Shown one piece after another: positions 4,474-38,732 of a stretch of DNA of 64,000 bases (position 1 is its first letter; each line of letters begins with the position of its first letter). Origin of the DNA: Acetobacteraceae bacterium (GTDB taxonomy: Bacteria; Pseudomonadota; Alphaproteobacteria; Acetobacterales; Acetobacteraceae); contig DAIDJM010000007.1 in the NCBI GenBank assembly GCA_027451405.1, positions 1 to 64,000 on the forward strand, given 5' to 3'. The notes below the pieces were generated by a model. The model saw only the letters and a program-made list of their open reading frames with translations, was not told where the DNA came from and did no database searches. Made by a program: the position numbers and the translations under genes.

Positions 4474-5001
4474 TCACGAAAAACCGCGCGGAACGCCGGC
4501 CGCCGCCACCGGCAGGTCGCACGCGCCGCTGTGATGCGTCCCCTCCGGGATGCCCGCGCGCACCGCATCCGACGGCGCCAGGTAGAAGATGTGGAAATCT
4601 CCTGCCGCGAGTGCCTGGTAGACGCGCCCATCCGGATCGATCAGCGTCCCGCCTCCGTCCACCACGCGCTGCTCCGAACTGCCATCGAGCTTCCGCAGCG
4701 TGATGCGCCCGCACAGCGCATATTCATGCGGCCCGGCGCCGCTGATCTCGATCTCCGCCTGTCCCTCCGGATGCGCTGCATCGAGCCGGAAACGCGCCAC
4801 CTGATGACCATCGACGAACAGCACGGTGTCCTCGCTGATCTCGATCGGATCGACCATGTCGATCACGTGGAAACGCGCTCCCCCCGCCGCGGCCTGAAGG
4901 CCGGTCAGGAGGAGGAAAGCCCCGAGATAGCGGGGTCCGGCGCCGCGTGGCCGTGGCGGGAGCCAGCCGGGCGAGGCATGGCCCTCCCGGCCCGCCCTCA
5001 C
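4474..5001 (-). CDS. Secreted or anchored protein of unknown function
   Basis: I do not recognise this 175-residue protein. After a basic N-terminus (PPRPRGAGPRY) there is a hydrophobic stretch LGAFLLLTGLQAAAGGA, which reads as a signal peptide or anchor. The rest is probably beta-rich (VLFVDGHQVARFRLD, RVYQALAAGDFHIFYLAP). It has four Cys-free core strands and two Cys (CGRI, CDLP). Its start overlaps the stop of the preceding small gene by four bases, so the two are probably co-translated. A 6-bp hairpin at 4458-4473 directly follows the stop. Confidence 0.6.
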   Translation of the reverse strand: MRAGREGHASPGWLPPRPRGAGPRYLGAFLLLTGLQAAAGGARFHVIDMVDPIEISEDTVLFVDGHQVARFRLDAAHPEGQAEIEISGAGPHEYALCGRITLRKLDGSSEQRVVDGGGTLIDPDGRVYQALAAGDFHIFYLAPSDAVRAGIPEGTHHSGACDLPVAAAGVPRGFS

Positions 5002-5207
5002 CGCACACCGCCGATCTCGCGCAGCTGCTTCGCGATCGTGTCGGCCCGCTCGGTCGCCAGCCGCATATTCCTGACCAGCTTCCCCATCGCCGGGTTGCCC
5101 GCCGACTGACGTTCGAACAGCTCGAGGCTACCTTCCAGAACCGTCAGCAGATTGGCGAGATCATGGGCCAGAGTCCGGATACGGCCGATTGTCTCTGGCT
5201 CCGCCAA
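4998..5207 (-). CDS. Small protein resembling a lone histidine-kinase H-box
   Basis: The 69-residue protein starts at a TTG (5207) preceded by an excellent Shine-Dalgarno, GAGAGGAGG, which overlaps the end of pheT. It contains LAHDLANLLTVLEGSLEL, which resembles the H-box helix of histidine-kinase dimerisation domains (HD..N.LT.). A second helix rich in Arg/Lys follows (KLVRNMRLATERADTIAKQL). The length fits a two-helix hairpin. There is no ATP-binding domain in it or next to it. It may act as a phosphotransfer or dimerisation module; this is inference from one motif. Confidence 0.6.
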   Translation of the reverse strand: MAEPETIGRIRTLAHDLANLLTVLEGSLELFERQSAGNPAMGKLVRNMRLATERADTIAKQLREIGGVR

Positions 5208-5221
5208 TTCTGCCTCCTCTC

Positions 5222-7654
5222 TCAGCGCAATCGGGCCCCAACCTTCGCCGCCGCCGCGACGACGCGTTGCGACACCGCCTCGATCTCGGCATCGGTCAGC
5301 GTGCGCTCTTTCGGCTGCAGCACGATCTCGATGCCCACCGACCGCGCCTCCGACGATAGCGCATACACATCGAAGATCGACGTGTCTGCGATCCCGCGAT
5401 CGGCCGAACGCACCGCGCGCAAAACCGTTTCCGCGCTCACCTCGTGCGGCATGACGAAAGCGAAGTCGCGCCGCACCGGCTGGAAGGGCGCCAAATCGGG
5501 CGCTCCCCGCCGGCGCCGTTTGGCCGGTGCGACCGCATCGAGAAACAGTTCGAAGGCGGCGGCATTCCCGAGTTCCAGGTCCGCGACCAGCGAGGGGTGC
5601 AGCGTGCCGAACTGGCCGAGCACGATCTTCGGCCCCTGCCGCACCACGCCGGACTGGCCGGGATGATAATGCGCCGGCGCATCCGCGGTGACGCTGACCG
5701 CTTCCGCCGGCACGCCGAGCGAGGCGAGCAGCGCGAACAGGTCGGCCTTGGCGTCCATCGCCCCCCAGGGCCGCGCCGGGGCGGCCCAGTGTCGGGGCGT
5801 GGTCCCGCAGCGCAGCCCGGCCGCCAGCGTGTTCTGACCGTCCCTGCCGTACGCACCGCCGATCTCGAACAGGCGCGTATGGCCGAACCCGCGGGCCGCG
5901 TTGCGCGCAGCGGCCAGCGCCAGACTCGCGAGCGGCGTCGGCCGCATCTGATCGAGGTCGGCCGCGATCGGATTGAGCAGCCGCAGGCTCTCGGGCACCT
6001 CCCCGAACCGCGCCGCGCTGGCCCGGTCGAGGAAGGCGAAGCCCACGCATTCCGCGAGCCCCCGCGAGGCCAGCAGCCGCCGCACCCGCGCCACCCGCGC
6101 CTGCCCCGGCGACAGCGCCGCCGCCGGGACCGGCGCCGCCCGCGGCATCGAGACCGCCGCCACCGCGTCGATGCCGCCGATGCGCAGCACCTCCTCGATC
6201 AGTTCCGCCTCCGGGCCAATCTCGCGCGCGCCGGCAATCGCGGCATCGGCGCGCGCCGCTTCCACGCCCCGCGGCTCCGGTGCCGCGCCCGCCGCCACAT
6301 CGTTGCGCCAGGGCGGCACCGAGACCGTGACACTCTCCGCATCCTGCGCCCGCACCGAAAAGCCGAGCCGCTCGAGGATCCCCACCGCGGTGCCAGGCTC
6401 GATCGCCGACCCGCCAAGCGCCGCGATGCGCGCGAAACGCAGCCGCGCCTCCCGCTGCCATGCCGGTTCGCCGCCGGCTTCGGTCAGCGCCGAAACCTCG
6501 CCGCCGCCATGGCCCGCGATCATGCACGCCGCCGCGACCGCATAGTCGCGCAAGCGCGACGGATCGATGCCGCGCTCGAACCGTGCCCGCGCATCGCTCG
6601 AGATCTGGTGCCGCCGCCCGGTCAGCGCGATCCGAATCGGATCGAACAGCGCGCATTCGATGAACACATCCGTCGTGCTCGCGTCGCTGCCGCTCGCCTC
6701 GCCACCGACGATCCCCGCCAGCGACACGACACCGCCGGCGTCGGCGATCACGAGATCCTGTTCCGTGACCGTCACATCGCGGCCCGCGAGTGTTGCGAAC
6801 GTCTCGCCGGCCCCCCGCCGCAAGGTCAATGTGCCGCCGGCCAGTTTGGCGGTGTCGAAGACATGCAGCGGTCGTCCGAGGTCGAACGTGAAATAATTGG
6901 TCACGTCCACAAGCAGGTTGCGCGGCCGCAGACCGATCTGGGTCAGGCGGCGCTGCATCCAGTCCGGCGACGGTCCGTTGCGCACGCCGCGCACGCTGAT
7001 GCCGACAATCCACGGGCAGGCTTCCGGCCACTCGACACGCCATTGGACCGCCGCCGGCGCGCTCCCCGCGACAATCTCTCCCGCCCAAGGCTTCAACACG
7101 CCAAGCCCCGCCGCGGCGAGATCGCGCGCCACCCCGCGCACCGCGAGCGCGTCGCCGCGATTGGGCGTCACGCCGATCTCGATCACCGGATCGTCGAGCC
7201 CGGCCCACCCCGCATAATCGAGCCCGGGCGGCGTGCCCTCCGGTAGTTCGATGATGCCGTCATGGTCCTCGCCGAGCGCCAGCTCCCGCGCGCTGACCAG
7301 CATCCCGGCGCTCGCCACGCCGCGGATCTCGCCCACCTTGAGCGTGATTCCGGTCCCCGGAATGAACGCGCCCGGCGGCGCGAACACCGCGCTCATGCCG
7401 GTGCGCGCATTGGGCGCACCGCATACCACGGTGATTTCGTCCCCGCCCGCCTCGACCCGGCAAACGCGCAGCCGGTCCGCATTCGGATGCGGCACCGCCT
7501 CGATCACCCGCGCGGTGCGAAATGGCGCGAGGCGCTCGGCCGGATTGTCGACGCTCTCCACCTCGAGTCCGATCGCCGAGAGCGTATCGACGATCCGCGA
7601 CAGCGGCGCATCCGTCGCCAGGTGTTCCCGCAACCAGGAAAGCGAAAACTTCAC
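5222..7654 (-). CDS. pheT: Phenylalanyl-tRNA synthetase beta subunit
   Basis: The 810-residue protein has the full PheT layout. It opens MKFSLSWLREHL, followed by a tRNA-binding OB domain (about 39-150), the B3/4 and B5 domains, a catalytic-like core, and a C-terminal ferredoxin-fold anticodon-binding domain (FQPVRRDFAFVMPHEV onward). With PheS it forms the alpha2-beta2 enzyme that charges tRNA-Phe. It overlaps the pheS stop by four bases, showing translational coupling. Last of the rpmI-rplT-pheS-pheT block. Confidence 0.97.
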   Translation of the reverse strand: MKFSLSWLREHLATDAPLSRIVDTLSAIGLEVESVDNPAERLAPFRTARVIEAVPHPNADRLRVCRVEAGGDEITVVCGAPNARTGMSAVFAPPGAFIPGTGITLKVGEIRGVASAGMLVSARELALGEDHDGIIELPEGTPPGLDYAGWAGLDDPVIEIGVTPNRGDALAVRGVARDLAAAGLGVLKPWAGEIVAGSAPAAVQWRVEWPEACPWIVGISVRGVRNGPSPDWMQRRLTQIGLRPRNLLVDVTNYFTFDLGRPLHVFDTAKLAGGTLTLRRGAGETFATLAGRDVTVTEQDLVIADAGGVVSLAGIVGGEASGSDASTTDVFIECALFDPIRIALTGRRHQISSDARARFERGIDPSRLRDYAVAAACMIAGHGGGEVSALTEAGGEPAWQREARLRFARIAALGGSAIEPGTAVGILERLGFSVRAQDAESVTVSVPPWRNDVAAGAAPEPRGVEAARADAAIAGAREIGPEAELIEEVLRIGGIDAVAAVSMPRAAPVPAAALSPGQARVARVRRLLASRGLAECVGFAFLDRASAARFGEVPESLRLLNPIAADLDQMRPTPLASLALAAARNAARGFGHTRLFEIGGAYGRDGQNTLAAGLRCGTTPRHWAAPARPWGAMDAKADLFALLASLGVPAEAVSVTADAPAHYHPGQSGVVRQGPKIVLGQFGTLHPSLVADLELGNAAAFELFLDAVAPAKRRRRGAPDLAPFQPVRRDFAFVMPHEVSAETVLRAVRSADRGIADTSIFDVYALSSEARSVGIEIVLQPKERTLTDAEIEAVSQRVVAAAAKVGARLR

Positions 7655-31432: not shown

Positions 31433-31576
31433 GCCGGGCGAGGTTGCGCCGCGGTCGCCCGGAGGAGCGCGAAACCGCGCGCAAATCGGCCTAGCTCGGA
31501 CGGGCATCTCCGGCGGCCGGGGACGTGGCCCGTGCCCCGCGAGGCAACCCTGCCGCGATCGCGCGTTGATCCCGGT

Positions 31577-33028
31577 ATGCCCCGCCTCGATCACCGCGCC
31601 GATCGCGCGATCGGCCGCATCGAGTCCGCGCGCTGGCTCGACGCTCCAAGCTATCTCGCCGAGACGCTGCTTTCGCGCCCTGCCCAGCTCCTCGGCCGCC
31701 CCGCCCGCCCGCTCGCGGACGCCTTGCACGGCACAAGCTGGGGCCATCCGGTTCACCCGATGCTGGTCACCATCCCGATCGGCACCTGGACCTTCGCGCT
31801 CGCGCTCGATCTCCTGGGCGCGCTGGGTCTGATTCGCCGCCGGGCGGCGGAACGATCGGCCCGCCAGGCGCTCGCCACCGGCCTCGCGGCGGCTGGCCTC
31901 GCCGCCACAGCCGGCCTCGCCGACTGGCAGCACACCAACGGCGCGGACCGCCGGGTCGGCGCCGCGCACGCGCTGATCAATGGCTCTTCCGTCGCACTGA
32001 ACGGGCTCTCGCTCGCCCTGCGCCGGCGAAACCGGCTTGGCGCCGGCCGTGTTGCCAGCGTCGTGGCCTGGGGCTTCATGGCGGCCGGCGGCTATCTCGG
32101 CGGCCACCTCGTCTACCGCCGCCGCATCGGCACGGACCACGCCGACCGGGTGCCCGCGCCGGAAACCTGGACCCCGGTCGCGCACCTTGCCGATCTCGAG
32201 GAAGGCCGGCCGCGACGCGCCGAATTCTGGGACGAGGCGACGCGCAAGCCGGTTGCCGTCGCCCTCGTCCGGGCAGGCGGTGCGGTCCACGCGCTCGGCG
32301 CCCGATGCGCGCACAAGGGCGGTCCGCTCGACGAGGGCTGGGTGCTCGACGGCACGCTCGTCTGCCCCTGGCATGGCTCGCGCTTTGATTGGCGCACCGG
32401 CCGTCCCGCCTCGGGTCCCGCCACCTGCCCGCAACCGCGCTACGCCGTCCGCGTGCGGGGCGACACGGTGGAGATCCGGCACCATGCCAGGCCCGGCGAG
32501 GTGCCGCTCTCATCGCCGCAGCCCGAGCCGCCGCCGTCCGGAACATCCCCGAATGCTGGCCCGCGCGCGGATGATCTGCTGACGCAACATCATGCGCTGA
32601 TCCGGAACCTGTTTCAAAGGATCGAAGCGCTGCCGCGCGAGGATCCCGAGCGCCGCGACCGGTTGCGCGTTCTCGCCACCGAACTCGATATCCACGAACA
32701 CATCGAGGATCGCGTGTTCTACCCCGCCGTGCAGCCGGTCAGCCCCGATGTCGTGGTTGCCCATTCGGAACACCGGCAGATGACGGATCTCCTGGCCGCG
32801 ACGCTGAAGCTCAACACGGCCTCGCCGGCGTTCGACCGCCACCTGCGCGCGCTGCGCGATGCCGTCGATCACCATGCGGGCTCCGAGGAAAGCGCGATGT
32901 TCCGCCACGCTCAGCGCCTGGGCGAGGACCGGCTCCGATCGCTCGGCGCGAGAATGGCCGCCATGATGGAAAGGGAGCGTGACTCGCGCTGGCTCGCGAT
33001 GAAAGTTCGATGGCTGGAAGGATCCTGA
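31577..33028 (+). CDS. DUF2231-Rieske-hemerythrin fusion protein
   Basis: Three domains are visible in 483 residues. Residues 1-195 are a four-helix membrane domain of DUF2231 type (TSWGHPVHPMLVTIPIGTW). Residues 200-305 are a Rieske [2Fe-2S] domain with CxH and CxxH ligands Cys244, His246, Cys263 and His266. Residues 333-470 are a hemerythrin HHE domain with QHHALIR, HEHIEDRVFYP, HSEHRQM and DHHAGSEE. It may be a membrane redox or oxygen/NO-linked protein; function is inferred. An alternative GTG start lies at 31532. Confidence 0.85.
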   Translation: MPRLDHRADRAIGRIESARWLDAPSYLAETLLSRPAQLLGRPARPLADALHGTSWGHPVHPMLVTIPIGTWTFALALDLLGALGLIRRRAAERSARQALATGLAAAGLAATAGLADWQHTNGADRRVGAAHALINGSSVALNGLSLALRRRNRLGAGRVASVVAWGFMAAGGYLGGHLVYRRRIGTDHADRVPAPETWTPVAHLADLEEGRPRRAEFWDEATRKPVAVALVRAGGAVHALGARCAHKGGPLDEGWVLDGTLVCPWHGSRFDWRTGRPASGPATCPQPRYAVRVRGDTVEIRHHARPGEVPLSSPQPEPPPSGTSPNAGPRADDLLTQHHALIRNLFQRIEALPREDPERRDRLRVLATELDIHEHIEDRVFYPAVQPVSPDVVVAHSEHRQMTDLLAATLKLNTASPAFDRHLRALRDAVDHHAGSEESAMFRHAQRLGEDRLRSLGARMAAMMERERDSRWLAMKVRWLEGS

Positions 33029-33139: not shown

Positions 33140-35443
33140 ATGCAAACGCTGAGCCTGCAGCAGGCTGCCCGTGACGAGCTGATCGATGAATCGGGCCGCC
33201 TGCGCCCGGTCTGGCGGCGCCTGCTCGGCACGCTGCTCGGCCTCGGCACGGCCACGCTGCGCGAACGCACCGCCCAGCTCGACCGCGCGCTGGCCGAAGA
33301 AGGGCCCGCCTCGCTCTCGCCGGTCGCGGGCGGCGCTTGGCGCTGCGATCCGATCCCGCTCCTGCTCGAACCCCAGGAATTCGCGGCGCTCGAAGCCGGC
33401 CTGGGCCAGCGTGCCTCTCTATTGAGCGCGGTGCTCGAGGATGCGTACGGCGCAGGCAGACTCGTCGACGGCGGCGTGCTCCCGCCCGCGCTGCTGTTCG
33501 CTGGCGGCCGCTATCTCTTCCCCTGCCGCGGCGCGCCGGGTGCCGGGCTGCTGTTCTACGCCGCCGATCTGCTGCGCCGACCCGACGGGCAATGGTGCGT
33601 CGTGGCTGATCACACGGCGGCGCCGGCCGGACTTGCCCGGGCGCTGCTGAACCGCAGGCTGATGGCCCGTGTGCTGCCGGAGCTGTTCCGCAGCCTCGAC
33701 GTCGCACCGCTCTCGCCCTTCTTCGAGCGCTTCGCCGCTTCCCTCGCCGCGCTCGGTCCCGCGGAATCGCCGCTGCCCGCGCTGCTCACGCATGGGCATG
33801 CCGATCCGAACTGGTTCGAGCACATGCTGCTCTCCCAGGAGCTCGGCTGCACCCTCGTGCAGCCCGGCGACCTGACCGTGCGCCAGGGCAAACTCTGGCT
33901 GAAGACGCTGCGCGGGCTGCAGCCGGTCGACGGTCTGCTGCGGATGGTCCAAGGCACCGCGATCGATCCGCTCGAATGCCCGGGCGCGGCCACACGCGGC
34001 GTGCCGGGGCTGCTCACCGCCATGCGAGCCGGCCGGGTCTGGGTCGCCAACGGTCCGGGGGTCGGGCTGGCCGAGGCCCCTGCGCTGCCGGCCTTCCTGC
34101 CGCTGCTGTGCCGTCATCTGCGCGGCGAGACGCTGGCCCTGCCGGACGCGGAGACGCTGTGGCTGGGCGATGCCGACGCGCGCGCCCGGGTCGCCGCCAC
34201 GCCCGCTTCCTACGCGGTCCGCGAGGACGCCGCGCGCGCGCTGCCGCCCGCGAGCTACGCGCCCGGTGTCGGTCCGGGCGAAACGCTCGAGCCGCTGCCC
34301 GTCCGGCTCCGCATGTTCCTGATCCGCGACAGGGCCGGCTGGCACGCGCTGCCGGGCGGCCTCGCCAGGGTGGAATCCGGCCCGTCCGCGGGCATGGCCA
34401 AGGATGTCTGGGTGCGGCTCGAGGAGCCGGAGGACATCGCCGGCAGCCATCCGCCGCCGGTTCCGTCCCCCGCGGTGCGCCGCACGGTCGGCGACCTGCC
34501 GAGCCGGACCGCCGACGATTTCTATTGGTTCGGCCGCTACCTGGAGCGGCTCGAGCATGCCGCCCGCCTGAGCCGCGCGCTGCTCGGCCGCCTGTCCCGC
34601 GCGAGCCTGCTGCCGCACGACCTGGCCGAGATGACCGCGCTCTCGGCCTGCCTGGTCGATGCCGGCGTGCTCAGCCCCGAGCTCGCGTCCCAGGCAGGGC
34701 CGGCGGTCCTGGGCGAGCTGCTGACCGGTGCCCTGGCGCGCGAAGGCGGCGCGATGGCGGCGGCCAAGCGCGACGTGCAGCATTTGGCCGATGCGCTGCG
34801 CGACCGGCTGTCCGGCGAGATGCATGCGATGATCGTGCAAGGGGTGCGGGCCCTCGATGCGAGCCGCGCGGCGCTGCTCCTGCGGCCCGATCCGGGCGTG
34901 CGGCCGGGGCTCGCGTCGCTCGGCGCCCATGTCGGGCGGGTCATCGCGTTCTGCGCCGGCGTGTCGGGCTACGCGGCCGAGAACATGGTGCGCGGCGGTG
35001 GCCGGCTGTTCCTCGATCTCGGGCGCCGCATCGAACGGGCCCAGGGAACCGCCGCGGCGCTGGCGCGGCTTTTCGCCGGCGCGCCGGGCGATGCGGCGCT
35101 CGGGCTCGCGCTCGAGCTCTGCGACAGCACCATCACCTACCGGACGCGCTATCGCGGGCTGCCGCAGACCGGACCGGTCCTCGACCTCGTGCTGGCCGAC
35201 GAAGGCAATCCGCGCAGCCTCGGTTTTCAGCTGGCGGCGGCGGCCTCCCTGCTCGAAGGGCTCGAGGCGGAGGAACTGGCGCGGCTTTTGAATGGGACGC
35301 TCGCATCGGTGCGCGAGATGGCGGCGCGCGCCGACGCGGGAGGGCTTTGGGCAGTGCGGGCAGAGGCGGCGCGCATATCGGATGCGGTGACCCGGCGGTA
35401 TTTCTCGCTGCTCCCGGTGACGTGGACCGGAACCCAGCGATGA
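33140..35443 (+). CDS. Fused circularly permuted ATP-grasp and alpha-E protein
   Basis: The 767-residue protein joins a circularly permuted ATP-grasp domain (about 1-440) to an alpha-E helical domain (about 455-767; RTADDFYWFGRYLERLEHAA is its hallmark start). Such proteins occur in predicted amidoligase clusters that make or modify peptides. Compared with the stand-alone copy downstream, the nucleotide-binding segment VVKPVGESGGYG is not recognisable, so this ATP-grasp half may be inactive. It is coupled to the next gene by ATGA. Confidence 0.85.
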   Translation: MQTLSLQQAARDELIDESGRLRPVWRRLLGTLLGLGTATLRERTAQLDRALAEEGPASLSPVAGGAWRCDPIPLLLEPQEFAALEAGLGQRASLLSAVLEDAYGAGRLVDGGVLPPALLFAGGRYLFPCRGAPGAGLLFYAADLLRRPDGQWCVVADHTAAPAGLARALLNRRLMARVLPELFRSLDVAPLSPFFERFAASLAALGPAESPLPALLTHGHADPNWFEHMLLSQELGCTLVQPGDLTVRQGKLWLKTLRGLQPVDGLLRMVQGTAIDPLECPGAATRGVPGLLTAMRAGRVWVANGPGVGLAEAPALPAFLPLLCRHLRGETLALPDAETLWLGDADARARVAATPASYAVREDAARALPPASYAPGVGPGETLEPLPVRLRMFLIRDRAGWHALPGGLARVESGPSAGMAKDVWVRLEEPEDIAGSHPPPVPSPAVRRTVGDLPSRTADDFYWFGRYLERLEHAARLSRALLGRLSRASLLPHDLAEMTALSACLVDAGVLSPELASQAGPAVLGELLTGALAREGGAMAAAKRDVQHLADALRDRLSGEMHAMIVQGVRALDASRAALLLRPDPGVRPGLASLGAHVGRVIAFCAGVSGYAAENMVRGGGRLFLDLGRRIERAQGTAAALARLFAGAPGDAALGLALELCDSTITYRTRYRGLPQTGPVLDLVLADEGNPRSLGFQLAAAASLLEGLEAEELARLLNGTLASVREMAARADAGGLWAVRAEAARISDAVTRRYFSLLPVTWTGTQR

Positions 35444-36315
35444 GAGCCGAAATCGCCTACGCGCTTCGCCACACCACCCGCTACCGCTACGCCACCCCCG
35501 TCGACCTGTCCGCCCATCTCGCTCACCTCACCCCCCGCCCCCTGCCGACCCAGCACGTCGCCAGCTGCGACCTCGAGATCGAGCCGCAACCTTCCTGGCT
35601 CGAAACGGGTGAGGATGCCTTCGGCAATGAAGTGCGCTGGTTCTTTCTGGAAACACCTCACGCCGCCTGCAATGTCACGCTGCATGCCCGGCTTTCGGTC
35701 GCCGCCCCCCGGGTCCCGCCCGCCACGCAGACCCCGCCCTGGACCGATATCGTGACGGCCGCCGCGGCGGCCGGCCCCGGCGGCGCCGAAGCCGGACCTT
35801 TCCTGTTCGAGAGCCCGCTCGTCGAGCCTGCCGCGGAAGCCCGCGATTACGCCGCCCGCTCCTTCTCCGACCGCCGGCCGATCCTCGAGGCGCTGCTCGA
35901 CCTCAATGCCCGCATCCATCGCGATTTCGCCTTCCGGCCCGGCGTCACCACCGTCAACACGCCGGTTCGCCAGGTCCTGGCCCAGCGTGCCGGGGTCTGC
36001 CAGGATTTCACCCATCTGATGATCGCCGGACTGCGTGCCCTCGGCCTGCCGGCCCGTTACGTCTCGGGATATATCCGCAGTCAGGGCGACGCGAATTTCG
36101 TGGGCGCCGATCAGTCCCATGCCTGGGTCGGATGCTGGCTCGGTCCGCAGTTCGGCTGGCTCGATCTCGATCCCACCAACGGCATGGTGGTCGCCGACGA
36201 ACATGTCGTGCTGGGCTGGGGACGTGATTACGGCGACGTCTCGCCGTTGCGCGGCGTGCTGCTCGGCGGCGGCGCGCACGAACTCGATGTCGGCGTCTCG
36301 CTGGTGCCGGTCTAG
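35440..36315 (+). CDS. Transglutaminase-like cysteine peptidase
   Basis: The 291-residue protein has an N-terminal beta domain (IAYALRHTTRYRYATPVDLS) and a transglutaminase core. The triad is visible as RAGVCQDFTHL (Cys), QSHAWVGCW (His) and LDLDPTNG (Asp). In predicted amidoligase clusters this enzyme is thought to cleave or trim peptide or isopeptide bonds. The ATG overlaps the upstream stop. Confidence 0.92.
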   Translation: MRAEIAYALRHTTRYRYATPVDLSAHLAHLTPRPLPTQHVASCDLEIEPQPSWLETGEDAFGNEVRWFFLETPHAACNVTLHARLSVAAPRVPPATQTPPWTDIVTAAAAAGPGGAEAGPFLFESPLVEPAAEARDYAARSFSDRRPILEALLDLNARIHRDFAFRPGVTTVNTPVRQVLAQRAGVCQDFTHLMIAGLRALGLPARYVSGYIRSQGDANFVGADQSHAWVGCWLGPQFGWLDLDPTNGMVVADEHVVLGWGRDYGDVSPLRGVLLGGGAHELDVGVSLVPV

Positions 36316-36336
36316 CGCGGCCGACAGGGGGGCAGA

Positions 36337-37779
36337 ATGCTGGCACGCGGAAACCTGCTCGATGGCTACGACAAGGGTGGCTTCTTCTGCGAGCTCGTCG
36401 ACGGCGCCGCGCGCGACCCCGCGCTGCGCCTCATCGCCGAGCGCCTCGCGGCGATCCCTGCCGAGGAGCTGGAACGCCGCGCCCGCATCGCCGAGGCCGA
36501 GCTCTACAACCAGGGCATCACCTTCACGGTTTATTCCGAAAAGGACGCGATCGACCGCATCCTCCCCTTCGACCTCGTGCCCCGGGTGCTGACCGCGGCC
36601 GAATGGAACACGCTCGAACGCGGCGTCAAACAGCGGGTCGCCGCGCTCAACGCGTTCCTCGGCGACCTCTACGGCGCGCAAAAGATCCTGAAGGACGGCG
36701 TCGTGCCCGCCGCGCTCGTGCTCGGCCACCCCTGTTTCTGTGCCGAGATGGTCGGCTTCGCCGTCCCGCACGGCACCTACGTGCATGTCTGCGGCATCGA
36801 CGTCGTGCGCGATTCGAGCGGCGCCTTCATGGTGCTCGAGGACAATGCCCGCACGCCGTCGGGCGTCTCCTACGTCATCGAGAACCGCAACATGATGCGC
36901 CGCCTGTTCCCCGATCTGATGGCGGGGATCGCGGTCCGTCCGGTCGGCAGCTATGGCATGCGCCTGCACCGGGCGCTCTGCGACATCGCTCCGCCCGACA
37001 TCGCCGACCCGCAGATCGTGCTGCTCTCGCCCGGCATCTATAATTCCGCCTATTTCGAGCATATTTTCCTGGCCCGCGAAATGGGCGTCCCCCTGGTGGA
37101 AGGGCGCGATCTCGTCGTGCAGGACCACCGCGTTTTCATGCGCACGACCGCGGGTCTCGCGCCCGTTCACGCGATCTACCGCCGGCTCAACGACGATTTT
37201 CTCGATCCCGACATCTTCCGCCCCGACAGCGCGCTCGGGGTGCGCGGCCTGATCGAAGCCTGGCGCCGGGGCCGCGTCGCCATCGCCAACGCGGTCGGCA
37301 CCGGGGTGGCGGACGACAAGGCGATCTACGCCTACATGCCCCGAATCATCCGCTATTATCTCGGGGAAGATCCCATCCTCGCCAATGTGGAAACGCATCT
37401 TTGCGCGGAAGCCGGGGGGCTCGCCTACACGCTCGACCATCTGCACGAACTCGTGGTCAAGCCGGTCGGCGAAAGCGGCGGCTACGGCCTGCTGATCGGA
37501 CCGCACGCGACACAGAACGAGCTCGCGACATTCCGTGAGCGCCTGCGCGCCGATCCCGCCAATTACATCAGCCAGCCGCTGATCTCGCTGTCGGTTTCGC
37601 CGACGCTCGCCGATGGCCAGCTGAAAGCGCGCCATGTCGATCTGCGCCCCTTCGCCATCACCGGCCGCGACACCTGGGTTCTGCCCGGCGGTCTCACCCG
37701 CGTGGCGCTGCGCCAGGGCTCGCTCGTCGTCAATTCGAGCCAGGGCGGGGGCTCGAAGGACACCTGGGTGCTCGAATGA
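36337..37779 (+). CDS. Circularly permuted ATP-grasp type 2 protein
   Basis: The 480-residue protein shows intact conserved blocks: YNQGITFTVY, AALVLGHPCFC, VLEDNARTPSGVSYVIENR, LSPGIYNSAYFEHIFLA, and VVKPVGESGGYGLLIG with the nucleotide-binding lysine and glycine-rich loop. It is predicted to form amide bonds using ATP. It follows the transglutaminase by 21 bases and overlaps the alpha-E gene by four bases. Confidence 0.93.
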   Translation: MLARGNLLDGYDKGGFFCELVDGAARDPALRLIAERLAAIPAEELERRARIAEAELYNQGITFTVYSEKDAIDRILPFDLVPRVLTAAEWNTLERGVKQRVAALNAFLGDLYGAQKILKDGVVPAALVLGHPCFCAEMVGFAVPHGTYVHVCGIDVVRDSSGAFMVLEDNARTPSGVSYVIENRNMMRRLFPDLMAGIAVRPVGSYGMRLHRALCDIAPPDIADPQIVLLSPGIYNSAYFEHIFLAREMGVPLVEGRDLVVQDHRVFMRTTAGLAPVHAIYRRLNDDFLDPDIFRPDSALGVRGLIEAWRRGRVAIANAVGTGVADDKAIYAYMPRIIRYYLGEDPILANVETHLCAEAGGLAYTLDHLHELVVKPVGESGGYGLLIGPHATQNELATFRERLRADPANYISQPLISLSVSPTLADGQLKARHVDLRPFAITGRDTWVLPGGLTRVALRQGSLVVNSSQGGGSKDTWVLE

Positions 37780-38732
37780 GCGGGCCGCTGCTTCTCTCCC
37801 GCCATGCCGAATGTCTCGTCTGGCTCGCCCGCTATATGGAGCGCATCGAAAATCTGGCGCGCATCCTGGACGTCACCGACACTTTCGTCCGCCACGGCGC
37901 CGATCAGAGCGGCTGGGAAGCCGTCGTGTGGATCAATTCCGACGACGAACCCTTCTTCCGCAAGCACGATGCCGCCACCGCCGAGACGGTGCTCGATTTC
38001 TACCTGCTCGACCGGGAAAACCCCAACTCCATCCTCTCCGCCATGCTCGCGGCACGCGAGAACGCGCGCACGCTGCGTCCCCTGATCTCGACCGAGATGT
38101 GGACGCAGATGAACGTCTTCAGCAACCGCGTGCGCGCGCTCAAGCGCGCCGATGCCGCCCCCTCGCGCGTCTCCGGCCTGTGCGCCTTCCTCAAGGAAGC
38201 CTGCCAGGCCCATGCCGGCATCACCGATGGCACCTTCTACCGCGACCAGGGCTGGGCTTTCTACTGCATCGGCCGATATCTCGAACGCGCCGACCAGACC
38301 TCACGCCTCGTCGACATCAAATACAACACGCTGCTGCCGAAGCCGGGCGATGTCGGCGGTCCGCTCGATGTCAGCCAATGGCACGCGCTGCTGCGCGCCG
38401 CGAGCGGCTATCACGCCTTTCGCCGCCTTTATCCAAGCGAAATGACCCCGGCCCTCGTCGCCGGCTTCCTGCTGATGAACCACGCGTTCCCGCGCTCGGT
38501 CGTACTGTGCGTCAAGCAGCTCGAGATCTACCTCTCCCAGCTCGGCTCGGGCTACACGCTCCGCGGCACCTATCCCGCTCTCGAGCGGCTCGAGGAACTG
38601 CGCGCAGCCCTGCTCGATCAGCCGATCGAAGCCGTCCTGGAACGCGGGCTGCACGAGTTTCTCGACTGGGTGCAGATGCAGCTGCGCGGCGTACACGATG
38701 CGGTGGCTCAGGCCTTTTGGGCGGAGGCGTAA
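37776..38732 (+). CDS. Alpha-E domain protein
   Basis: The 318-residue all-helical protein begins LLSRHAECLVWLARYMERIE, the hallmark of the alpha-E family, and contains FYCIGRYLERADQTSRLVDI. The family's mechanism is unknown; it always travels with ATP-grasp partners. It ends the four-gene cluster that starts at 33140. Confidence 0.92.
   Translation: MSGPLLLSRHAECLVWLARYMERIENLARILDVTDTFVRHGADQSGWEAVVWINSDDEPFFRKHDAATAETVLDFYLLDRENPNSILSAMLAARENARTLRPLISTEMWTQMNVFSNRVRALKRADAAPSRVSGLCAFLKEACQAHAGITDGTFYRDQGWAFYCIGRYLERADQTSRLVDIKYNTLLPKPGDVGGPLDVSQWHALLRAASGYHAFRRLYPSEMTPALVAGFLLMNHAFPRSVVLCVKQLEIYLSQLGSGYTLRGTYPALERLEELRAALLDQPIEAVLERGLHEFLDWVQMQLRGVHDAVAQAFWAEA

Follow-up and report, generated by a model that had tools for sequence, protein, structure and literature searches.

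A DUF2231-Rieske-hemerythrin fusion protein family of Acetobacteraceae, a candidate stress-linked membrane oxidoreductase

What might a bacterium do with a membrane domain, a Rieske domain, and a di-iron hemerythrin domain joined in a single polypeptide? The question is raised by the gene at positions 31577-33028 (forward strand) of the window, by which we mean the whole 64,000-nucleotide stretch analyzed (contig DAIDJM010000007.1, positions 1 to 64,000, assembly GCA_027451405.1) from an Acetobacteraceae bacterium. The answer that we tentatively favor, and hold to be somewhat short of probable, is that the product would be a stress-linked membrane oxidoreductase in which the Rieske centre feeds a di-iron site that consumes peroxide, nitric oxide (NO), or O2. 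The protein joins known domains in a new combination and belongs to a conserved family.

Three domains in one chain

A single open reading frame, running from an ATG at 31577 to a stop codon that ends at 33028, encodes a protein of 483 residues, and its start agrees with that of most relatives in an alignment of 12 proteins. Pfam places three domains along it, each above the curated cut-off: DUF2231 (PF09990, residues 56-187, 64.6 bits against a cut-off of 26.4, covering model positions 1-138 of 139), followed by Rieske (PF00355, residues 197-289, 62.4 bits against 20.3) and Hemerythrin HHE (PF01814, residues 332-444, 51.2 bits against 25.3). The Rieske ligands are present as CxH (C244/H246) and CxxH (C263/H266), and the HHE motif H-HxxxE-H-HxxxE is complete (H339, H373/E377, H399, and H433/E437). 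The original prediction, made from the letters of this DNA, that the three domains share one chain and that the Rieske domain is complete, is therefore borne out. Neither ScdA_N nor a kinase, cyclase, DNA-binding, or similar output domain turned up in the same Pfam scan. The features of the gene, all on the forward strand, are as follows.

31577-33028, +, DUF2231-Rieske-HHE gene (reading frame, Pfam, and alignment of starts)
31742-32137, +, DUF2231 membrane domain, residues 56-187, with four long helices in the models (Pfam, models, and hydropathy peaks)
32105-32107, +, His177, closing the fourth membrane helix immediately ahead of the Rieske domain (22/22 Rieske-fused against 2/48 readable Rieske-less proteins)
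32165-32443, +, Rieske [2Fe-2S] domain, residues 197-289 (Pfam, PDB 1vck, and model match)
32306-32314, +, Rieske ligands C244-x-H246 (15/15 proteins)
32363-32374, +, Rieske ligands C263-x-x-H266 (15/15 proteins)
32486-32560, +, variable Rieske-HHE linker, residues 304-328 (low identity; predicted local distance difference test score, pLDDT, below 50 at 304-327)
32570-32908, +, hemerythrin HHE domain, residues 332-444 (Pfam and PDB 6q09)
32591-32593, +, HHE ligand H339 (15/15 proteins)
32693-32707, +, HHE ligands H373xxxE377 (15/15 proteins)
32771-32773, +, HHE ligand H399 (15/15 proteins)
32873-32887, +, HHE ligands H433xxxE437 (15/15 proteins)
32924-32980, +, extra helix (residues 450-468) predicted to follow the HHE bundle, with a counterpart in the Mycobacterium kansasii protein discussed below (predicted model and 6q09 alignment)

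In a model built from seven sequences, the four long helices span residues 59-82, 88-119, 122-150, and 154-184, and are followed by the Rieske domain, rich in β structure, and by the HHE domain, which is helical and has added helices. Modeled alone, DUF2231 reaches a pLDDT of 77.5.

A conserved family with intact metal ligands

A scan of one genome for each of 84,980 species, which used peptides of this protein alone and detects close relatives only, gave 19 pattern matches, six of them relatives. These are full length or nearly so, share 57-60% identity with the protein, and belong to Pseudoroseomonas oryzae, P. rhizosphaerae, P. vastitatis, Belnapia moabensis, Roseomonas sp. SXEYE001, and Acetobacteraceae bacterium AT-5844. 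Within a sample of 397 Acetobacteraceae genomes, the window's own included, 13 genomes from 8 of 102 genera matched at E ≤ 1e-30. Once four of these had been dropped as duplicates of the named records, 15 distinct proteins remained, again counting that of the window. The main alignment holds 12 of them (53-61% identity to the window protein), and the relatives L003, L039, and L042 were added later.

All three Pfam families match in 15 of the 15 distinct proteins, and every one keeps the four Rieske and six HHE ligands. Loss of the HHE ligands in homologues had been named as a possible refutation of the original prediction, and so had a fusion created by mis-assembly; the ligands are kept throughout, and the same domain order recurs in the 14 other proteins. 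H338 and H396 are each absent from one protein and are therefore unlikely to be essential ligands. L003 has a different N terminus that lacks the first membrane helix, H51, and H57; its Rieske and HHE ligands are intact.

Mean pairwise identity among the other 14 proteins is 71.5% in DUF2231, 73.7% in the Rieske domain, and 76.2% in HHE, which is the best conserved domain of the family, against 47.2% in the linker. Comparison of the window protein with its 13 relatives gives 63.0, 61.7, and 66.6% for the three domains and 20.8% for the linker. That the ligands are invariant while the linker between the two domains drifts suggests that both metal centres are under constraint.

Nearest known relatives of the Rieske and hemerythrin domains

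In the PDB, the Rieske part matches 1vck (E 4e-9), and the corresponding part of the model matches Rieske ferredoxins with a Z score of about 14. The Rieske ferredoxins of aromatic dioxygenases (CarAc, 1vck; BphA3; and others) have the same fold and ligands. They are separate proteins, however, whereas the Rieske domain described here follows a membrane domain and has a possible electron acceptor in the same chain. Scores fall below the cut-off for the models of the cytochrome b6f Rieske subunit (NF045928, 14.5 bits against 250) and the dioxygenase ferredoxin AndAb (NF041683, 57.4 bits against 150).

The closest solved relative of the HHE domain is 6q09, a hemerythrin-like protein of Mycobacterium kansasii that is an ortholog of Rv2633c (phmmer E 6.5e-20; Foldseek E 4.3e-5). 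Residues 328-483 of the model align with it in VIA-align at Z 18.2 and a root mean square deviation of 2.5 Å over 156 residues, and the predicted match runs along the length of 6q09, its extra fifth helix included. The M. kansasii protein is described as a five-helix di-iron NO peroxidase with weak catalase activity, whose iron ligands are four histidines, two glutamates, and one tyrosine (PMC8913304). Its authors set the mycobacterial class apart by the tyrosine ligand pattern and by the unfused state (PMC8913304). The M. kansasii protein is a single unfused domain, unlike the HHE domain studied here, which is fused to DUF2231-Rieske and so falls outside that class on the second count. The likeness is one of sequence and predicted fold and would not by itself imply a shared activity.

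Two further models were scored on the HHE part: the NCBIfam hemerythrin model TIGR02481, which we take to represent hemerythrins of the O2-carrier type, gave 11.4 bits, under its cut-off of 51.75, and that of the PA2171 family (NF053874) gave 56.4 bits, under 190. To our knowledge, no membrane or Rieske domain occurs in RIC/YtfE or other HHE proteins. The motif H-HxxxE-H-HxxxE of those proteins is the one found here (PMC12753109).

Two further hemerythrin-domain proteins lie elsewhere in the same genome. One (L090:1198-1920) is a separate ScdA_N-hemerythrin protein, a layout that we presume to be typical of RIC proteins. The other (L092:1477-3384, reverse strand) is a P-type ATPase frame with a C-terminal hemerythrin domain, a combination known for metal-transporting ATPases.

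The DUF2231 domain and its marker residues

Two residues of DUF2231 follow the presence of a Rieske domain closely. His177, at the end of the last membrane helix, is present in all 22 Rieske-fused proteins and in 2 of the 48 Rieske-less ones that are readable there; for Trp117 the figures are 22 of 22 and 4 of 62. These counts are not independent, as the Rieske-fused proteins are related to one another (L056 and L100 are nearly identical). The Rieske-fused set comprises the 15 family members and seven DUF2231-Rieske proteins of Actinobacteria. The Rieske-less set holds 64 proteins: 30 (29 of them from 56 sampled places), seven from plasmids, and those of the remaining 27 places; gaps, which number 16 at position 177 and 2 at position 117, are excluded from the counts. 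No Rieske motif was found in the Rieske-less frames, and Pfam, run on two of them, reported DUF2231 alone. Other residues of the window protein are shared with this set, as judged from readable positions: H60 (60/61), D78 (55/64), H131 (46/62), H57 (39/52), and D116 (34/62).

An association of His177 and Trp117 with the Rieske fusion is what would be expected if DUF2231 and the Rieske domain work together. The pattern is a correlation, and it points to a site where the two domains would meet. The order of the helices in the models would place H57, H60, D116, H131, and H177 toward the membrane face at which the Rieske domain begins. Gln177 stands in place of the histidine in the closest Rieske-less relatives, L093 and L095 of Deinococcus, though Trp117 is kept. 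L112, a Rieske-less DUF2231 protein, carries at position 177 the GGH of the Rieske-fused ones.

Respiratory supercomplex subunits and cytochromes b561 and b562 appear among the non-significant PDB listings for DUF2231 and were not used as evidence. On a plasmid of Roseomonas mucosa (L099:1959-2456), a stand-alone, Rieske-less DUF2231 gene lies between cytochrome c oxidase genes, CopD, and an oxidase assembly gene, a context hinting that DUF2231 belongs to respiratory biology.

A candidate stress promoter

The upstream regions of 14 family genes (that of L003 was left out) were aligned. In 9 of the 14, a box of the form GAAC-N16-[CT][GAT]TT lies 74-84 bases upstream of the start codon; the pattern was relaxed after the alignment had been viewed, and the relatives are not independent. 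With spacers of 15-17 bases allowed, the count is again 9/14, compared with a mean of 0.24 and a maximum of 3/14 in 500 rounds of dinucleotide shuffling. Among 200-base pieces drawn at random from the six named loci, 0.7% (N16) or 2.4% (N15-17) match, and the six 13-kilobase loci contain the box eight times on both strands, four of which are these upstream boxes. The stricter form GAAC-N15-17-CGTT is found before 3 of the 14 genes, and the loosest pattern, AAC-N16/17, before 12, against 2.8% of random pieces. L032, L035, and L042 match the loosest pattern only; the window gene and L048, the start codon of which is a guess, match none.

The EcfG general-stress promoter is reported as GGAAC-N16-CGTT, with -10 variants TGTT and CATT (PMC7083833). 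The form of the box appears to agree with it, and we refer to the candidate as EcfG-like. Patterns of the FNR, NsrR, OxyR, and EcfG types matched in 0 of the 14 upstream regions. In the window's genome, a NepR match just over the cut-off (26.1 against 25.7 bits) lies beside a frame that, by eye, resembles a sigma factor of the extracytoplasmic function type. The literature searched yielded no hemerythrin in an EcfG regulon. One further candidate lies before the window gene and was not counted.

31544-31567, +, weak EcfG-like candidate GCAAC-N15-CGTT, one base off in its spacing and near the ATG

What the protein may do

The mechanism that we have in mind may be outlined as follows. DUF2231 would hold the protein in the membrane and would probably offer a site of electron entry, for a quinol or a bound cofactor, at the face that carries the conserved histidines and the Rieske domain. 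The [2Fe-2S] centre would then relay single electrons to the C-terminal di-iron site of HHE, at which a small oxidant, most likely H2O2 and/or NO and less likely O2, would be reduced or disproportionated. Its removal would protect cells that are stressed or not growing. Beyond the domain assignment, we infer the filling of the metal centres, the order of electron transfer, the substrate, the induction by stress, and the redox role of DUF2231. The original prediction of a membrane redox enzyme that senses or consumes O2 or NO is plausible in the light of the invariant metal sites (15/15), the likeness to 6q09, and the promoter box (9/14). The prediction is partly supported: sequence cannot distinguish sensing from consuming, and the seven loci compared share no neighbor that would name a partner or substrate.

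A more specific form of this proposal, which we regard as unlikely, takes DUF2231 to be quinol-oxidizing or cofactor-binding, with His177 beside the Rieske cluster, such that one chain would carry electrons from quinol through the Rieske and di-iron centres to H2O2 or NO. Were it true, the protein would be a non-heme-iron quinol peroxidase or NO reductase in one chain, and DUF2231 would gain its first function as a family.

Several observations weigh against the proposed oxidoreductase. With regard to stress, the exact EcfG consensus with GGAAC (N15-17) is found in 0 of the 14 upstream regions, the box that is found was defined post hoc, and the window's own gene is without a clear promoter box. 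With regard to the di-iron site, the tyrosine that serves as an iron ligand in the M. kansasii protein may have no counterpart: the two tyrosines of 6q09 that closely follow the HxxxE ligands are matched in the alignment by F381 and Y382. With regard to DUF2231, the domain alone has no PDB match at E ≤ 0.001, and His177 is also present in two Rieske-less proteins, L094 and L112; the first of these, from Dermacoccus, clusters in a quick tree with the Rieske-fused proteins, and no Rieske-like motif was found in 6.3 kilobases at its locus. Confidence in the full-length model is middling (pLDDT 68; predicted template modeling score 0.43), for which reason no distance between the metal centres is quoted. 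Loop charges give no consistent sign of the side of the membrane on which the metal centres lie. In the window protein, loops 1 and 3 carry charges of +4 and +5, loop 2 of 0, and the segment after helix 4 of +2, so that under the positive-inside rule the Rieske and HHE domains would lie outside. In the relatives, loop 3 keeps +2 to +5, but loop 1 has only +1 to +2 and the N-terminal 60 residues 0 to +7. Both domains, moreover, have soluble proteins as their nearest relatives of known structure. Finally, no neighboring gene, regulators included, is common to all seven loci compared.

The protein might alternatively be a sensor or regulator, in which the di-iron site would bind O2, NO, or peroxide and the Rieske centre report the redox state, with a change in partner binding and without turnover. 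The hemerythrin-like protein MsmHr represses a sigma factor (PMC4295536), and the HHE part does score on the PA2171 model, which describes a persister protein, at a level far under the cut-off. This reading is made rather unlikely by the lack, in the Pfam scan, of any kinase, cyclase, or DNA-binding output domain and, in the seven loci, of a common regulator gene.

To much the same degree doubtful is a respiratory side branch, by which DUF2231-Rieske would carry electrons to another complex and HHE would only store O2 or deliver it to the membrane. DUF2231-Rieske proteins without HHE do exist in Actinobacteria, which would suit such a role. Gluconobacter, too, is a member of the Acetobacteraceae, the family of the window. 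Hemerythrin-like proteins of Myxococcus xanthus are reported to speed the growth of Gluconobacter oxydans (PMC12753109). Two findings argue the other way: TIGR02481, assuming that it does stand for O2 carriers, reaches only 11.4 of 51.75 bits, and HHE, at 76.2% mean identity, is more strongly conserved than a mere store would need.

It is quite improbable that the protein serves in iron handling, with an HHE site that would store or donate iron, for instance in Fe-S repair, in the manner of RIC/YtfE, given that the genome encodes a separate ScdA_N-hemerythrin protein and that the fusion showed no ScdA_N domain in the Pfam scan. A chance or mis-assembled fusion, for which one might cite the differing neighborhoods of the relatives, is ruled out for practical purposes by the 14 other distinct proteins of the same order from separate assemblies.

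Distribution and history of the fusion

Within the samples examined, the triple fusion is found only in Acetobacteraceae. Among the 60 nearest genomes, the only matches that span more than one domain are those of the window's own genome and of G021 (L003, the protein without the first helix); the others are many Rieske domains and one HHE. No other full-length protein was found at E ≤ 1e-20 in samples of the class (385 genomes) or of the phylum Pseudomonadota (398 genomes), own genome included in each, where at most four and three candidates per genome, respectively, were scored, such that some may have been missed. These two samples gave single domains: HHE (L050 and L052), Rieske (L051, with one stop inside the match), and DUF2231 (L053). 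On viral contigs, 0 of 26 pattern matches were relatives. Independent HHE fusions may also exist in lineages outside Pseudomonadota, which were sampled through plasmids only.

Those plasmids bear out the expectation that DUF2231 and Rieske domains would already be known together. Seven records from Actinobacteria (Streptomyces, Kitasatospora, Nonomuraea, and Rhodococcus) have these two domains first and in the same order, at 34-37% identity over 53-61% of the window protein, and all seven share His177 and Trp117 with the fusion family. Unlike the window protein, they lack HHE, and the three that are annotated are 306-316 residues long. At one of the seven loci, a plasmid of Streptomyces sp. 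NBC_00257 also bears a hemerythrin gene, separate from the DUF2231-Rieske gene and about 4 kilobases away from it (L056:384-944 and 4872-5792).

The simplest history, we infer, is that HHE was added to a DUF2231-Rieske protein in or near the Acetobacteraceae and that patchy inheritance followed. Most of the seven loci compared differ in their flanking genes. Plasmid p1318-1 of Roseomonas marmotae carries a 99-residue HHE remnant (L060:3866-4165) with 63.8% identity to residues 365-411. It follows an IS110 transposase gene at a distance of about 200 bases, and we read it as a decayed copy of the fusion family.

No description of the DUF2231-Rieske-HHE fusion was found in the literature searched. 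A survey of long hemerythrin proteins lists 56 architectures, and the word "Rieske" does not occur in its main text, figures and supplements aside (PMC4919030).

Gene neighborhood

The comparison covered the window and the six named loci, seven of 15 in all, over about 6 kilobases on each side, using frames of at least 80 residues; the remaining loci have too little flanking sequence. Flanking genes are common to L032 and L036 on either side and, as a block on a single side, to L033 and L035; beyond that there are a few scattered single similarities. As no neighbor is common to the seven, the context names neither a partner nor a substrate. In the window, the neighbors are a class-III aminotransferase gene and genes for CP-ATP-grasp, Alpha-E, and transglutaminase proteins. 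The latter form a downstream run at 33146-38729 (CP-ATP-grasp/Alpha-E, transglutaminase, CP-ATP-grasp, and Alpha-E) with no visible link to the fusion.

Significance

The DUF2231 family is in effect undescribed in the literature searched, and the fusion provides a handle on this uncharacterized domain. It makes for a compact and testable system, with two metal sites, a marker histidine, a candidate promoter, and Rieske-only relatives that can serve as natural controls. With a Rieske redox partner and a likely terminal di-iron site fixed in the same chain, DUF2231 would seem to have its place in redox biology. In this family of Acetobacteraceae proteins, the HHE site may have a built-in electron donor.
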